Below, piece by piece: positions 3,114 to 10,073 of a DNA stretch of 22,145 bases; the stretch's first letter is position 1; the number at the start of each line of letters is the position of its first letter. The stretch spans positions 1 to 22,145 of IMG/VR virus record IMGVR_UViG_3300033146_003125, one strand, 5' to 3'. The notes beneath the pieces are model-generated. The model was given only the letters and a program-made list of their open reading frames with translations. It was not told the origin of the DNA and did not search any database. The stretch is from a virus. A program made the translations under genes and the position numbers.

Positions 3114-3562
3114 TTTATAAGAGAAGTTAAATCATAAACTCCATCTTTTTTATCTATTCTTATAATATTAGATAATAATGGATCATTTATCTTGATAGAT
3201 TTTTTAGGTGTTATAGCATCAACTAAATAGTCATATTGTTCAGTGTCCATAGCTAATATATAATTCCACTTATGTGGATTCCAAATATTAATCAAAATCC
3301 ACTCTTTACCACCTGCCTGTTTAACTCTTTTTAGTGCTTGTAATTCATGGGCTCTATTACTAAATAGATTAACTAGGGGAATAGATGTTAATGACTTAGA
3401 TATTTTATATTCTAGTCCTAGAAAGGCTTTATTGTAACATAAAACTGCATCAAACGGATTTGTGAATCCTGCATCCACAATTTTATGATAAAACTTAACA
3501 CCTGGTAATGTTCTCAATGATTGTCTAAATTCTGTCTGAAATGTTCTTTCTGTTCTAGCCAT
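3110..3562 (-). CDS. PD-(D/E)xK nuclease, Holliday-junction-resolvase-like
   Basis: A 150-residue protein with the layout of a RecU/Hjc-type resolvase fold. There is an N-terminal Glu-bearing helix (E5, E11), then NPFDAVL with D38, then LGLEYKIS giving E51-x-K53, the catalytic PD-(D/E)xK core. A helix follows (NRAHELQALKRVKQAGG, residues 69-85) and a strand WILINIW, as in RecU-family proteins where this region reads as H..L......GG.a..li. Its likely role is resolving recombination or replication junctions before packaging. It stops with TGA, overlapping the next ATG. The neighbours are an SSB-like protein and a Sak4-like ATPase, consistent with a recombination cluster. The exact subfamily is uncertain. 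Confidence 0.75.
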   Translation of the reverse strand: MARTERTFQTEFRQSLRTLPGVKFYHKIVDAGFTNPFDAVLCYNKAFLGLEYKISKSLTSIPLVNLFSNRAHELQALKRVKQAGGKEWILINIWNPHKWNYILAMDTEQYDYLVDAITPKKSIKINDPLLSNIIRIDKKDGVYDLTSLIK

Positions 3563-3855
3563 TAATCTAATATATTATATGTATATCCTTTCTCACATTC
3601 AGGTAAAAATTTATTATTATCATACCATTTCATTGCTTTTTTCCTTCCTATAAAATAACCATTTGCATATACGACTAAAATAGGCTCAATTGTATATGCT
3701 CTTGTAATATAATGTCGAGGCTTGCCAATTATTATCCCCCTAAATGCAAAATACCAACGAAGATCCTCTCCAAATTTTGCTATTAGTTCTGTGACATTAT
3801 CTTTATCTGATAAAACGTAAGCGATTTCTCTAGAATGTAATTTTTTTCTTTTCAT
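3562..3855 (-). CDS. Hypothetical protein (97 aa)
   Basis: A basic 97-residue protein rich in aromatics (LRWYFAFRG, KWYDNN, GYTYN). Residues 30-75 alternate in a beta-like way (GIIIGKPRHYI ... PILVVYANGYFIGRKKA). It overlaps the start of the nuclease gene by one base (TAATG), which points to coupled translation, so a role linked to the nuclease is possible. No known motif or membrane segment is visible and the family is not recognised. Confidence 0.65.
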   Translation of the reverse strand: MKRKKLHSREIAYVLSDKDNVTELIAKFGEDLRWYFAFRGIIIGKPRHYITRAYTIEPILVVYANGYFIGRKKAMKWYDNNKFLPECEKGYTYNILD

Positions 3856-3867
3856 TATGAAATAAGC

Positions 3868-4104
3868 TTAATCATTAAGTATTTTTCTTATTTTATCAAA
3901 TACCTCAGGTTCTGAATTATTTTTCATTAAAGCTGATACACCATCAGTCATTATAAATGTAATCAGTTTCGCAACATCAACATTACTACCTTCACCATAT
4001 AAACCTACTATAGCATCATTACCATTTTTAACAAATGTTGCAATTAATATATTATGTTTTTTTGCCACTGCTGATATATCGTCTTTAAATTGTTGTTCAT
4101 TCAT
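3868..4104 (-). CDS. Hypothetical protein (78 aa)
   Basis: A 78-residue soluble alpha/beta protein. An N-terminal helix (QFKDDISAVAKKHN) is followed by a strand (ILIATFVKNG), a second strand (AIVGLYGEG) and C-terminal helices (VAKLITFIMTDGVSALMKN). It is not recognised with confidence. Its ATG overlaps by one base the stop of the SWIM-encoding frame upstream (TAATG), which suggests that the SWIM frame is translated and that this gene is coupled to it. Confidence 0.65.
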   Translation of the reverse strand: MNEQQFKDDISAVAKKHNILIATFVKNGNDAIVGLYGEGSNVDVAKLITFIMTDGVSALMKNNSEPEVFDKIRKILND

Positions 4105-4307
4105 TACATTAAATGTTTAATAATAATTTCATCTGCATGTTTACAAGTTTTATTCGTAAGCCATCCTTGACATGTACAGTTAACAACTTTACTATCCTTA
4201 ACTGTTATATCATAAGTAATATTTTTTGTTGATGATTTTACTTTATATACTTCTCCTGTTATTTCAAAATCAAGAGGCTTCTTATTAAATACTTCTTCAA
4301 CTATGCT
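4104..4307 (-). CDS. SWIM zinc-finger extension of SSB, reached by -1 frameshift
   Basis: A frame with no ATG, GTG or TTG start encoding SIVEEVFNKKPLDFEITG, then EVYKVKSSTKNITYDITV, then a zinc-binding part with C-T-C-Q-G-W and T-C-K-H. This is the SWIM pattern CxC-x(n)-CxH. It is in the -1 frame relative to the SSB-like gene and opens right after that gene's A9 run; an in-frame TAA lies just upstream (4314-4316), so entry must be at the run. The 67 residues would extend SSB to a 194-residue fusion. Known SWIM domains bind nucleic acid or protein. Alternatives are transcriptional slippage, a homopolymer sequencing error (ten A would fuse the frames), or a rare ATA start at 4302-4304. Confidence 0.65.
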   Translation of the reverse strand, partial: SIVEEVFNKKPLDFEITGEVYKVKSSTKNITYDITVKDSKVVNCTCQGWLTNKTCKHADEIIIKHLM

Positions 4308-4687
4308 TTTTTTTTAGGTGCTTCAATTTTTTGAATATTAGCAAATGTTTTACCTTCATGTTTACCTTTACCTTTGGTTTGTTTAATTGTGATAATACAT
4401 TCAAGTCCTACTAAATCTTGTTCATCAAATGATCCTGATTCAGGAAGTGTTTTTTCATCACTAATCATTGCAAGTAAATCAGCAAAACATCTAAATCCAT
4501 CACCCTCCATTATAGATGGTGTAATGAATTCCATATGTTCACTTTGATCTTCTAATCCAAATTTAACCATTAATTTATCAGGTCCATTAGGATTTGAATA
4601 AGTATCCGCGCTAATAATAATAGCATTATGTTCTCCCTCTTTTGTAGGTTCATAAGATGGAGAATCCTGTGTGTTGTAATCAATCAT
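4301..4687 (-). CDS. Single-stranded DNA-binding protein-like (DUF669-type)
   Basis: A 128-residue protein with the pattern of phage DUF669-type SSBs: an N-terminal EGEHNAIIISADTYSNPNG, then LMVKFGLEDQ, a helical middle (FRCFADLLAMI), then DLVGLECIITIKQTKGKGK and FANIQKIE, suggesting an OB fold. It would coat single-stranded DNA during replication and recombination. It sits two genes from the Sak4-like ATPase, a common partnership. The C-terminus is APKKKA with no acidic tip, unlike bacterial SSB. The codons CCT AAA AAA AAA GCA TAG end in the only TAG stop found in this window, and a -1 frame continues into a SWIM domain, so two products are likely. Confidence 0.7.
   Translation of the reverse strand: MIDYNTQDSPSYEPTKEGEHNAIIISADTYSNPNGPDKLMVKFGLEDQSEHMEFITPSIMEGDGFRCFADLLAMISDEKTLPESGSFDEQDLVGLECIITIKQTKGKGKHEGKTFANIQKIEAPKKKA
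4307..4315 (-). promoter_or_regulatory. Putative -1 frameshift or slippage site (A9)
   Basis: A run of nine A in the minus-strand message, read in the zero frame as AAA AAA AAA after CCT. It contains the canonical -1 slippery heptamer A-AAA-AAA. The zero-frame stop TAG follows after one more codon, and the -1 frame is open for 67 codons into a SWIM zinc finger. A run of this length also permits polymerase slippage. No strong downstream hairpin is evident by eye. Confidence 0.6.
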
Positions 4688-5075: not shown

Positions 5076-5966
5076 TTATTTAAAATTCTTTACCTTATCA
5101 AATATCTTTGCTGCAATATTATTTGTTACAGGAAATTTTAAACAAGGTTTTCCTGTGGCCTTTGCGATAAGATTACATTCATCTACTTCAAATTTTGCAC
5201 CTCTTCTTTTTAATTCTTCACGTAATAGTTTTTTATAATCAACTAGTCCAGAATTTTCCGTTATATTAATTTCAATTTCTTCAACTTTTTGTTCTTCTGT
5301 TTTTATACCATTGATTCTTTTTTGCCATTCGATAAAATTAACAGGACAATCATCACCAATAACTTCTGATCTATCCTTTGTTACAAGGTTTATTTTGTTA
5401 TTGGTTCTTATTTCTCTGTTCCCTTTGACATCAACCTTTAAATAACCAACAACATCCATAAAATACGGAAGAGCTGATGTAGAACCTTTCCCATCAAGGG
5501 ATGGCACGATTTTTCTAATCTTATCTTCATCATTTATATATGCTTCTTGTGCAAGTAATATTACATTCATTGGAAGATCTCTAAAATCTCTAAATATTTT
5601 AATAAGTGTATTTTTTAATTCACCCCAGTTTTGTAACTGCATTGTATGACCTTCCTTTTTTTCAATTTCAAGTTTGAGTGTATTACTTATCTCAGTAATT
5701 GAGTCTAATACAATGGTAGTAAATTTATGATCTTCATCTTTAAGATACGAATACGCATCTTTAAGATCTTTCATTGATTTAATATCAACATATTTAGGCT
5801 TTTTATCTTTAATTGATAATAATCCTCCTTCAGCTGATAAAAATAATACTTTTGTATTATCTTTGTCAATTGCAGAACCTGCGAATACTGTTTTACCGCA
5901 ACCACTAGCCCCATATATAAGAGCTTTAATGTGATGATTTTCCGGGGTATACGTTTTAATCTTCAT
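5076..5966 (-). CDS. Sak4-like single-strand annealing/RecA-type ATPase
   Basis: A 296-residue RecA-fold ATPase. The Walker A GASGCGKT is at residues 19-26, a strand with acidic end (VLFLSAEGG) at 40-48, and the Walker B TTIVLDS with D88 at 83-89. A probable sensor strand follows (NVILLAQEAY), then DGKGSTSALPYFMDVVGYL, the pattern of phage Sak4 proteins. Residues 240-296 form an extra small basic domain (KLLREELKRRG ... KPCLKFPVTNNIAAKIF). Sak4 proteins anneal or exchange single strands with help from SSB; the neighbouring SSB-like gene, exonuclease and resolvase-like nuclease complete a recombination module. The start is the first Met and has an A/T leader. Confidence 0.8.
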   Translation of the reverse strand: MKIKTYTPENHHIKALIYGASGCGKTVFAGSAIDKDNTKVLFLSAEGGLLSIKDKKPKYVDIKSMKDLKDAYSYLKDEDHKFTTIVLDSITEISNTLKLEIEKKEGHTMQLQNWGELKNTLIKIFRDFRDLPMNVILLAQEAYINDEDKIRKIVPSLDGKGSTSALPYFMDVVGYLKVDVKGNREIRTNNKINLVTKDRSEVIGDDCPVNFIEWQKRINGIKTEEQKVEEIEINITENSGLVDYKKLLREELKRRGAKFEVDECNLIAKATGKPCLKFPVTNNIAAKIFDKVKNFK

Positions 5967-6503: not shown

Positions 6504-7227
6504 TTATTAGGTTTTTTAATTTGTTTATAAAGTTTATTTTAATATCTCCAGCTTTTAGTTCATCGACATTTACTTGTGGAATATAAGACATAATAAATTC
6601 ATCTACTAATTGTTCAATCACATTTATATTCTCTTTTTTCTTTAATTTAATTATTTCATTTTCTTTTTTTGCTATTTTATTTACTTCTTTAATTGCTTTA
6701 TCTATAGCCTTCTTTTTATCTAGCTCTCTATTTAATAATTCTTGTTGTTCATTTAACTTTGCCTCCTTTGCCTCTAGATATTCTGTTTTTCTTAAACTTA
6801 TAAATTCCCTATATTGTTCTGGACTCATTAATAACAAATCATCATCTTTCATTGTTATTCCAATTTCTTTTAATTCCTCTATCCTTGATGGTAATAAAAT
6901 TTGTCTATCCCTTATTGTCCTTGCCTCATCAATTGAATCTTTCTTAGATTTTAATTCACCTTCTAAATCTTCTGTTATTTTCAACAGTTCTTTCTCTCTT
7001 GCTATAACAGATTTTGCATATTTATTTGCATCATCCCTTAATGTTTTACCATCAGCCTTTAATTTATTTCTATTTGATGAGCAATCCTTAATTGCAACTT
7101 TCAATGCTGCATATCCTTCTTCATTATCTATGTCAATTTCTTTTTTTGACAAATCAGAATACATATCAACTAATATAGTCAATTTATCTTCCCATGGTTG
7201 TAATAGTGTTAAGCTTAATTCAGTCAT
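6496..7227 (-). CDS. Coiled-coil protein, DUF1351-like, recombination-associated
   Basis: A 243-residue protein that is almost entirely helical and rich in Lys and Glu. Residues 30-105 have the pattern of DUF1351-like phage proteins, in which a helical repeat (ALKVAIKDCSSNRNKLKADG) is followed by a long coiled coil. A second coiled coil spans about 150-205 (LEAKEAKLNEQQELLNRELDKK in two parts), and the C-terminus is a short globular piece (VNVDELKAGDIKINFINKL). DUF1351-type proteins commonly sit beside phage recombinases, as here. The family link is tentative. There is no enzyme motif. The genes on both sides overlap it by 8 bases. Confidence 0.65.
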   Translation of the reverse strand: MTELSLTLLQPWEDKLTILVDMYSDLSKKEIDIDNEEGYAALKVAIKDCSSNRNKLKADGKTLRDDANKYAKSVIAREKELLKITEDLEGELKSKKDSIDEARTIRDRQILLPSRIEELKEIGITMKDDDLLLMSPEQYREFISLRKTEYLEAKEAKLNEQQELLNRELDKKKAIDKAIKEVNKIAKKENEIIKLKKKENINVIEQLVDEFIMSYIPQVNVDELKAGDIKINFINKLKNLING

Positions 7228-7750
7228 GATAAATAATATTATGTAAATTTTTAAAATAAGGTATTAATGGTTGTCCAATATCATATGAATTAGGATAAAG
7301 ATCATTATGTAATACCATTTTTGCTTGATCTTGAAGCTGTCCATATGTTTCTACATTTACTGGTTGTTGAAAATATTTTTCATCAACTAATACATCTGAT
7401 TCTAATATCTTTTCAAATCGTTCTATATCCTTTTCATATATATGTAATGAGCCTACAACATGTATATATTTACCTGGCTCAACTTTAAGTATATTAGCAA
7501 AACATTCTTGAATAAATGTAAATTGTGAGATGTCATAAGGAACTCCCCATAAAACGTCTTGTGATCTCATAGTCACTAGTAAATCTAATTTATTATCACG
7601 TAATATAAATTGTAAGTTCTGAGTGCAAGGAATATCAAGCGAATTATAATCATGCATATCTTCATGATAATTATTAATATTTAATGTTGCTTGTCTTGTT
7701 AATGGATCTCTTTTTAATAGGTCCAATATATATTTATATTGCTTTATCAT
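7220..7750 (-). CDS. Thymidylate synthase/dCMP hydroxymethylase family, C-terminal part
   Basis: A 176-residue protein matching the C-terminal two thirds of the TS fold. Spacing from the nucleophile fits E. coli TS without gaps: C42 (PCT, for C146), R62 (MRS, for R166), D65 (for D169), D73 (YDI, for N177), H103 and Y105 (for H207, Y209). Asp at the N177 position favours dCMP over dUMP and is found in T4 dCMP hydroxymethylase, which also has Cys-Thr where TS has Cys-His. The N-terminal third and the central segment with the catalytic Glu are absent. In-frame codons just upstream of this ATG (7751-7768) encode GSYGPR, the expected conserved motif, so the true reading once extended further. The gene is coupled by ATGA to the N-terminal fragment. 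Confidence 0.8.
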   Translation of the reverse strand: MIKQYKYILDLLKRDPLTRQATLNINNYHEDMHDYNSLDIPCTQNLQFILRDNKLDLLVTMRSQDVLWGVPYDISQFTFIQECFANILKVEPGKYIHVVGSLHIYEKDIERFEKILESDVLVDEKYFQQPVNVETYGQLQDQAKMVLHNDLYPNSYDIGQPLIPYFKNLHNIIYHD

Positions 7751-8120: not shown

Positions 8121-9401
8121 TTATTTAATTCTTAATAAATCTGTCTCATCTTTTCTGAGTCTTGTTTTTTCATATCTGTATACTCTAATATATTTCTTAT
8201 TAAAATCAGATGGCTCTATACAAATTGAATTTTGATCAATTTCTGTGTTATATGTACTAATCAAAGATGAAATAAGTTCCTTAGATGTCAAAGTTTCTTG
8301 CTTCTTAAAGCTTATTTGTGATAATATCTTATGTATTACCATTTCAGGATCACATAATTTTTTTGCTGTTTCAATTTGCTTTTTAAGTATATTTCTATAT
8401 AATAAATCATTATGTAAAATTATCTTCATTCTTAAAACTACATCATCATAGTTTTTATCATTCATTGATATAAAACAATCTTGATCAGGAACAACTGTAT
8501 TTAAGAAATGTTCATTAAATATACAAATACATCTATTATTAATCATCTCATACATAGCATATTCAAATCGATTTCCATAATTTTCTGCTTTCAATATAAA
8601 TCCAGAATATGCAAACTTACTTCTTTTAAGTTCATTCATTAAATCTTTATTTTTCATCTCACCTTTCATGTTTACTTTTTCATTTATTAACAATTCTTCA
8701 CCTTTTTTCATAATATTCAAATCATCTTTATTTGGCTCTATTAATTGACTAAAAGATTCAATTGTCCTACCAACACCACAATATAAATATTTTATATCCT
8801 TAAATCTTTTGAATAGCTCCATCATTTCTATTGGTTTCTTAAATGTTGCATATCTTCCTGCATAAGTACATATATCTTCTTTAACTGATAAATCAAAATC
8901 TTCATCAAATTTATATGGAAGTGCAAATTCTTTTATGCTATTCTTTTTATGCGGTAAGAACTTTGCAATCATATTTGCATATTCACTATTCTTATTAAAT
9001 GTAAAAATATAATCACAAAAATTTAATCCTAAGAATATCTTTGGACACTTATTAAAATAAGCTTTAGTATTAAAATGTAAGAATCCAATAATAATAACAC
9101 CTTTATTATGTAATTGTTCTAATTGATCATAGAAACTATTAACCTCTTCAAGTGTTGATTTATTATTAGGAAAGGAATTTATAAATATGATATTAGTATC
9201 AGTTAAATGATCAAGATAATTAGACGTAGTAATTATATCAAACCCTAGTAAGTCAAAGTTTTTTTCATTACTATAATGGGCATTCTTATTATCAAAATTA
9301 ATAATATGTTTTTCATCAAATAATCTTGAAAATTCAATCATAAATTTTGTTGATCCAAGACCATCAATTCCCTGACCATTTAACCAATAGATTTTTTTCA
9401 T
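8121..9401 (-). CDS. GT-B glycosyltransferase resembling T4 DNA alpha-glucosyltransferase
   Basis: A 426-residue protein. The N-terminus has GQGIDGLGSTKF (residues 9-20), which parallels ARGLEGCGVTKF of T4 alpha-glucosyltransferase as I recall it. Further parallels are IIFINSFP (71-78), a Tyr-Ala-Gly-Arg strand before TFKKPIEMM (180-194) and RFEYAMYEMINNRCICIF (278-295), the donor-binding end of GT-B enzymes with E280 and E285. T4 AGT transfers glucose from UDP-glucose to hydroxymethylcytosine in DNA. Here the partner gene is a TS/dCMP-hydroxymethylase relative, which supports a DNA-modifying role. The alternative is a glycosyltransferase acting on host polysaccharide. No membrane segment is seen. 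The C-terminal 60 residues are extra and basic. Confidence 0.7.
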   Translation of the reverse strand: MKKIYWLNGQGIDGLGSTKFMIEFSRLFDEKHIINFDNKNAHYSNEKNFDLLGFDIITTSNYLDHLTDTNIIFINSFPNNKSTLEEVNSFYDQLEQLHNKGVIIIGFLHFNTKAYFNKCPKIFLGLNFCDYIFTFNKNSEYANMIAKFLPHKKNSIKEFALPYKFDEDFDLSVKEDICTYAGRYATFKKPIEMMELFKRFKDIKYLYCGVGRTIESFSQLIEPNKDDLNIMKKGEELLINEKVNMKGEMKNKDLMNELKRSKFAYSGFILKAENYGNRFEYAMYEMINNRCICIFNEHFLNTVVPDQDCFISMNDKNYDDVVLRMKIILHNDLLYRNILKKQIETAKKLCDPEMVIHKILSQISFKKQETLTSKELISSLISTYNTEIDQNSICIEPSDFNKKYIRVYRYEKTRLRKDETDLLRIK

Positions 9402-9710: not shown

Positions 9711-10073
9711 TTATAGTTTTTTCTTATCCTTTCCATATCCCCATTCGTCTTGACGTTTATTATTAATATCATGTTTTTTTATAAATGTATCATATATATC
9801 TGTAGCATTTAGATCAAATATAAGACATACAGTTATAAAGAAATGTAATACATCAACTAATTCTAATTTTAATTTTCTAATATTAACTTCACCACCTTTC
9901 TTCCAATGTTTCCGGAGCGGAAGTTCTTGACGGACCTCTGCGAGTTCCTCCTGAATGTGTCCAATAAACTCAATAGCTAAATGTTGTTTATCGTCTTCAC
10001 TCATTGATTTAAAATCGAACCATCGTTTTTCGAACTCCTTTTGAAGATCGAACATGTGTTGTAATGGATCCAT
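9711..10073 (-). CDS. All-alpha NTP pyrophosphatase (dUTPase-2/dCTPase/MazG-like)
   Basis: A 120-residue helical protein with the two metal-binding signatures of this superfamily: E-E-x-x-E at 42-46 (QEELAEVRQE) and E-x-x-D at 71-74 (LELVDVLHFF). The loop LPLRKHWKK and the ending KHDINNKRQDEWGYG resemble dimeric dUTPases. T4 gp56, a dCTPase/dUTPase that protects hydroxymethylcytosine DNA from unmodified C, is of the same fold. It would hydrolyse a dNTP to dNMP and PPi in the host cytoplasm. It is the first gene after promoter P2. The codons for residues 15-60 look more GC-rich than the neighbours. Confidence 0.75.
   Translation of the reverse strand: MDPLQHMFDLQKEFEKRWFDFKSMSEDDKQHLAIEFIGHIQEELAEVRQELPLRKHWKKGGEVNIRKLKLELVDVLHFFITVCLIFDLNATDIYDTFIKKHDINNKRQDEWGYGKDKKKL

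Follow-up and report, generated by a model that had tools for sequence, protein, structure and literature searches.

The DNA analyzed here, referred to below as the window, is an IMG/VR virus record of 22,145 bases with a G+C content of 28.6%, in which the minus strand carries replication and recombination genes and the plus strand carries packaging and head genes. Judged by the terminase, the closest sequenced phages are Flavobacterium phages (44% identity), which points to the Bacteroidota as the likely host. Terminases that are 68% and 64% identical to that of the window were also found in contigs JAJYBC010000025.1 (L119) and JAQTOC010000010.1 (L120), which are binned into small-genome MAGs (a bacterium and a Nanoarchaeia, respectively); both may be mis-binned phage contigs. 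The locus under study contains a gene for an SSB that ends in a run of nine A, a SWIM-encoding segment in the -1 frame, and, two genes upstream of the SSB gene, a gene for a Sak4-like ATPase that is the probable functional partner of the SSB (Table 1).

Table 1. Features of the SSB locus, in window coordinates.
Feature	Position	Strand	Description
Next gene	3868..4104	-	78 aa; the ATG start overlaps the TAA that closes the SWIM frame
-1 frame	4104..4313	-	Last two codons of the A-run, 67-codon SWIM extension and TAA; candidate fusion of 194 aa
SWIM motif	4137..4178	-	C-T-C-x8-C-K-H; 16.1 bits against a Pfam cut-off of 19.6; aligned with the SWIM segments of G005 and L106
Zero-frame TAG stop	4301..4303	-	The only TAG stop among 39 candidate genes
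Zero-frame SSB ORF	4301..4687	-	128 aa, OB fold, end ...APKKKA-TAG
A9 slip run	4307..4315	-	Zero-frame A_AAA_AAA inside; A9 or A10 at the same place in relatives
Sak4-like single-strand annealing ATPase	5076..5966	-	phrog_124, E=3.5e-45; AAA_24, E=1.5e-27

In a profile search, the product of the SSB gene matched the SSB family phrog_378 (E=6.7e-6), and it showed a weak match, under the cut-off, to the NCBIfam phage replication protein NGO0469. Its AlphaFold model, built from an input of three sequences, adopts an OB fold (pLDDT 72), and among PDB entries this model was closest to OB-fold structures of PrgE (TM 0.57-0.59, E from about 3e-5 to 1e-4). These findings support the assignment of the gene product as a phage SSB of the OB-fold type, which is predicted to bind ssDNA. 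PrgE of plasmid pCF10, an OB-fold DNA-binding protein and the closest solved fold, nevertheless shares only 14-17% identity with the window SSB, and has neither a SWIM tail nor recoding. The zero-frame SSB of the window lacks an acidic C-terminal tail. Direct reading confirmed the end of the gene as CCT-AAA-AAA-AAA-GCA-TAG, as stated in an earlier note on this DNA, and likewise its claim that TAG serves as a stop nowhere else in the window. We also considered read-through of this TAG but discarded it: beyond the TAG, the zero frame soon closes in the window, and in the related genes described below it closes immediately.

The A9 is the only A or T homopolymer of nine or more bases in the window, where an order-1 Markov model predicts 3.4. 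Among the eight Lys-Lys-Lys stretches encoded by the window genes, only the one at the SSB end is written as A9, the other seven all being interrupted by AAG; at an AAA usage of 77%, the probability of AAG in seven of seven is about 0.015 (hand arithmetic). The earlier note had pointed to the slippery heptamer A_AAA_AAA within the run. The heptamer is indeed present, but it is not telling by itself, and its evidence alone is weak because eight other in-frame sites exist in the genes. What counts is the nine-base length of the run and its conservation rather than the heptamer. For the junction segment at 4256-4345 (90 bases), the comparison variants of the run that we propose are A8, A10 and AAGAAGAAG.

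Past the A9, the -1 frame stays open for 67 codons, which include the SWIM pattern, and closes at a TAA (4106..4104), the last base of which is the first base of the downstream ATG (TAATG). The upstream boundary of this frame is a TAA formed by the first bases of the A-run itself. We scored the frame with the phage's own codon usage, taking 65-codon windows of real genes for comparison. It scored +13.4 bits including a stop penalty of -5 (18.4 without the penalty), against a mean of 18.2 bits (sd 8.0) for the real-gene windows and means of -44 and -64 for shifted frames; the other two forward frames over the SWIM extension scored -35 and -89 bits. The codon usage of the -1 frame is thus normal for a gene of this phage. 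The encoded zinc-ligand pattern, CxC...CxH, reads CTC-x8-CKH in the window and CSC-x8-CKH in the related contig. While the window segment lies below the curated Pfam cut-off for SWIM (PF04434; Table 1), those of the related contig and of an unrelated phage, L106, reach 21.6 and 19.7 bits, respectively. The AlphaFold model of the SWIM segment, which has modest confidence, consists of three strands and then helices, and a PDB fold search with this model gave no usable match.

The SWIM frame has no ATG, GTG or TTG ahead of the motif, as the earlier note had observed, nor does it have a CTG. An NTG start ahead of the CxC is in fact missing from all three SWIM frames (the window and two in the related contig). 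This bears on the reading in which the SWIM segment is made as a separate protein, through coupled translation or by initiation at an uncommon codon (ATA or ATT, for example). Such codons do occur in frame, and L106 (IMGVR_UViG_3300005683_000025) carries, at 3503-4161, a gp32-like SSB gene and a coupled stand-alone SWIM gene after it, the two overlapping by the four bases ATGA. The candidate genes of the window, however, start with ATG in 37 of 39 cases and with TTG in the remaining two, which, together with the lack of an NTG start in any of the three frames, makes a separate SWIM protein very unlikely here. L106 is an unrelated phage in which the SSB-SWIM pairing exists without recoding, and since its SSB is gp32-like and its SWIM gene separate, the pairing evidently occurs with different SSBs.

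The arrangement described in the earlier note recurs when homologous SSBs are compared. A contig of 40,683 bases, IMGVR_UViG_3300005613_000153 (L021, L092), was reached through relatives of the large terminase, and it contains two SSB genes, ending in GT-A9-TTAG and GACG-A10-TTAG, each followed by a SWIM segment in the -1 frame after the A-run. In both, as in the window, TAG after the run ends the zero frame, and A_AAA_AAA is kept in the zero frame and in the right phase in all three SSB genes. The two SSBs match phrog_378 with E=2.6e-4 and, weakly, 0.011; they share 36% and 39% identity with the window SSB and 29% with each other, and the SWIM segment of this contig is identical to that of the window at 14 of 35 positions. 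The -1 arrangement is therefore found in three SSB genes on two contigs, both metagenomic, and is conserved across divergent SSB homologues. Because the two cases in the related contig share one SWIM segment, they and the window together represent two independent SWIM sequences, not three.

The two SSB genes of the related contig lie in different cassettes, one comprising a Sak4-like ATPase, a PD-(D/E)XK exonuclease and the SSB, and the other a phrog_10048 protein, a YqaJ exonuclease, an HNH-like gene and the SSB. These cassettes (L092 37-5793 and L140 3109-8921) are situated between near-identical flanks: a 118-base stretch ahead of both is 95% identical, and past them 3644 nt are 99.8% identical, starting within the A-run. 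The cassettes are thus unlike up to the A-run, and the -1 relation is preserved in both. From this pattern we infer that the single contig represents two strain variants assembled together, with a cassette exchange that ended at the A-run.

Homopolymers are prone to sequencing error, and both records are metagenome assemblies, so that the three genes could in principle be ordinary in-frame fusions from which a base was lost in sequencing or assembly. An identical one-base loss would then have had to occur three times, on two contigs and in runs of two different lengths. Since none of the three junctions departs from the -1 relation, we do not expect a base-calling error and regard this explanation as highly improbable. 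The two run lengths also bear on phase variation, in which the length of the run would differ among virions, so that genomes with one extra A encode a plain fusion and those with the run as found here encode the short form. Poly-A tracts are unstable in replication and serve phase variation elsewhere (PMC3711429), but the cassettes of the related contig carry A9 and A10 with the -1 relation unchanged, as would be expected if it is the phase of the two frames that is maintained, without drift. Phase variation is accordingly an unlikely account of this locus.

We propose instead that the gene encodes two forms of the SSB. Most decoding would end at the TAG and yield the short, tail-less OB-fold SSB, while a fraction would slip at the A9 into the -1 frame and yield a 194-residue SSB with the SWIM zinc-binding domain as its C terminus. 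The slip could arise from an extra A added by RNA polymerase or from the ribosome slipping on A_AAA_AAA, and both routes would give the identical fusion junction (...EAPKKKSIVEE...). On the strength of the sequence comparisons, a recoded SSB-SWIM fusion made alongside the tail-less SSB is a likely and well-supported candidate. We also consider it probable, with good confidence, that the explanation as a whole holds, namely that one gene gives two SSB forms through slippage on the A-run, with the SWIM domain as the proposed replacement of the annealase-recruiting tail. Both the production of the two forms and their ratio are what we infer.

A stimulatory RNA structure common to the three junctions was not found (best z-scores: window, -1.9; relatives, -0.9 and +0.5), and there was no conserved upstream Shine-Dalgarno (SD) sequence at the window junction. 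A stem-loop or an upstream SD is common at programmed -1 frameshifts, although neither is obligatory. With transcriptional slippage, RNA polymerase would add an A on the A9-A10 run and the resulting mixture of mRNAs would be translated normally. All three runs are 9-10 bases long, past the 7 required by the ribosomal heptamer, a downstream stem-loop is not consistent across the junctions, and bacterial RNA polymerase slips with high efficiency on 9 A or T (PMC5009743); against this, the zero-frame A_AAA_AAA in all three genes suits a ribosomal -1 slip, and phages are known to shift ribosomes without stimulators (PMC5009743). We give this route about an even chance. In the ribosomal counterpart, tandem tRNA-Lys would slip on A_AAA_AAA near the in-frame TAG. 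The phase of the heptamer is correct in each gene, 9-A runs gave 40% frameshifting in reporter cassettes in E. coli, with efficiency increasing with run length (PMC3711429), and a Shine-Dalgarno-like AAGGAAG lies just upstream of the run in one relative. The window, on the other hand, has no conserved stem-loop or upstream SD, and the surplus length of the run would not be needed, leaving the ribosomal route a real possibility of somewhat less than even chance. We therefore lean slightly towards transcription, because there is no shared stem-loop and the runs exceed what the ribosomal heptamer needs.

Wider searches for this arrangement gave neither another frameshifted case nor an SSB-SWIM fusion. 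A protein-pattern search of viral and genome contigs revealed no close relatives of the SSB or the SWIM segment beyond IMGVR_UViG_3300005613_000153, and tblastn against phages and plasmids gave no significant match. Viral contigs were also scanned at the DNA level for poly-A with CxC-x8-CKH after it, at a single spacing range shorter than the window's own spacing. This returned 24 stretches, in which the SSB -1 case occurred only in IMGVR_UViG_3300005613_000153; many of the remainder were plain in-frame SWIM proteins, some appeared to be chance-like, and one was L106 with its separate SWIM gene next to an SSB gene. Searching for the SSB motif HEGKTF ahead of poly-A returned 12 stretches, with an SSB and SWIM together again only in that contig. 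Across 380 genomes from the phylum of the MAG with the 68% identical terminase, one SWIM protein was found, and it was unrelated. A group of single-frame viral proteins of 100-130 aa with a CxC-x8-CKH SWIM end was also encountered (L098, L102-L105, L111, L113, L116 and L118); these proteins start with MLEILKETTVW... or MIEILQEVTDW....

The C-terminal tails of SSBs act as a hub that recruits repair and recombination proteins to SSB-coated DNA. In phage HK620, where the SSB gene likewise lies near the gene of a Sak4 annealase with which it is functionally paired, stimulation of Sak4 requires the last six residues of the cognate SSB (PMC5928155). That tail is acidic (NDYPPF), in contrast to the window, where the zero-frame SSB is tail-less and the SWIM segment lies in the -1 frame. 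A relative whose Sak4 is 54% identical to that of the window has an SSB ending in ...EDLPFS and no SWIM match. In our model, the SWIM domain would stand in place of the acidic C-terminal tail by which ordinary phage SSBs recruit the annealase, and slippage would set the share of ssDNA-bound SSB that carries a recruiting or DNA-bridging tail. By analogy, based on the tail requirement in HK620, the EDLPFS end in the relative with the 54% identical Sak4, the tail-less window SSB and the pairing in L106, the SWIM domain most plausibly serves in the tail's stead to hold the annealase or DNA. Its partner would not be Sak4 alone, since one cassette of the related contig has a phrog_10048 protein in place of Sak4. 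More tentatively, slippage may set the share of SSB bearing a SWIM annealase handle while the poly-A acts as a recombination joint through which different SSB/annealase cassettes come to be joined to one and the same SWIM tail, a combination that we consider possible but rather doubtful.

C-terminal variants made by slippage are already known from dnaX and from the Ig-like extensions of phage proteins (PMC5009743). In the dnaX gene of Thermus thermophilus and E. coli (tau/gamma), a replication protein is similarly made in two C-terminal forms through slippage on an A-rich run, whether transcriptional or by a ribosomal -1 shift, but there the slip produces the shorter form, whereas here it would produce the longer one and add a zinc domain to an SSB. 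In phage T3 coat, Lactobacillus phage A2 and Listeria phages, a fraction of the protein gains a C-terminal domain by a -1 or +1 frameshift (PMC5009743); these are virion proteins with largely Ig folds, in contrast to the DNA-metabolism protein and zinc-binding SWIM domain of the window. The eukaryotic Shu complex offers another likeness, since its SWIM protein Shu2/SWS1 partners RecA/Rad51-like ATPases in recombination (PMC6316741), and the SWIM segment of the window is linked to an SSB encoded near a Sak4 gene. Shu2/SWS1 is, however, a separate protein that binds a Rad51 paralogue, while the SWIM domain here would be fused to the SSB. Moreover, the Shu2/SWS1 signature CxC...CxHxxA (PMC6316741) differs from CKHADE and CKHLSP, in both of which the third residue after the His is not A, and the absence of HxxA makes this a parallel, not a kinship.

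Slippage recoding is thus a known kind of mechanism, but the literature searched contained no example of it acting on an SSB or adding a SWIM tail: neither an SSB-SWIM protein nor SSB recoding was encountered there, although the coverage was partial and does not prove absence. Recoding in phages has mostly been reported for structural genes. If the proposed fusion is made, phage recoding would reach a DNA-metabolism gene, and slippage, by fixing how much of the SSB bears a hub domain and how much does not, would be a simple means of tuning recombination. The small SWIM proteins of phages would then also have a suggested role.

Elsewhere in the window, a short thymidylate-synthase-like gene (7220-7750, minus strand, 176 aa), which matches the later part of its family only, lies near an alpha-glucosyltransferase-like gene (8121-9401, minus strand; phrog_2888, E=4e-21), and a pyrophosphohydrolase/dUTPase-like gene is found at 9711-10073. 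Together, these genes hint at modified, glucosylated DNA. At 838-1230 on the minus strand, a 130-residue protein is built of GNNxS-type repeats, five residues (15 bases) long and near-perfect, and weakly matched a collagen-like tail protein; because of the 15-base repeat, long ORFs are also open at the same position on the plus strand and in another frame of the minus strand.
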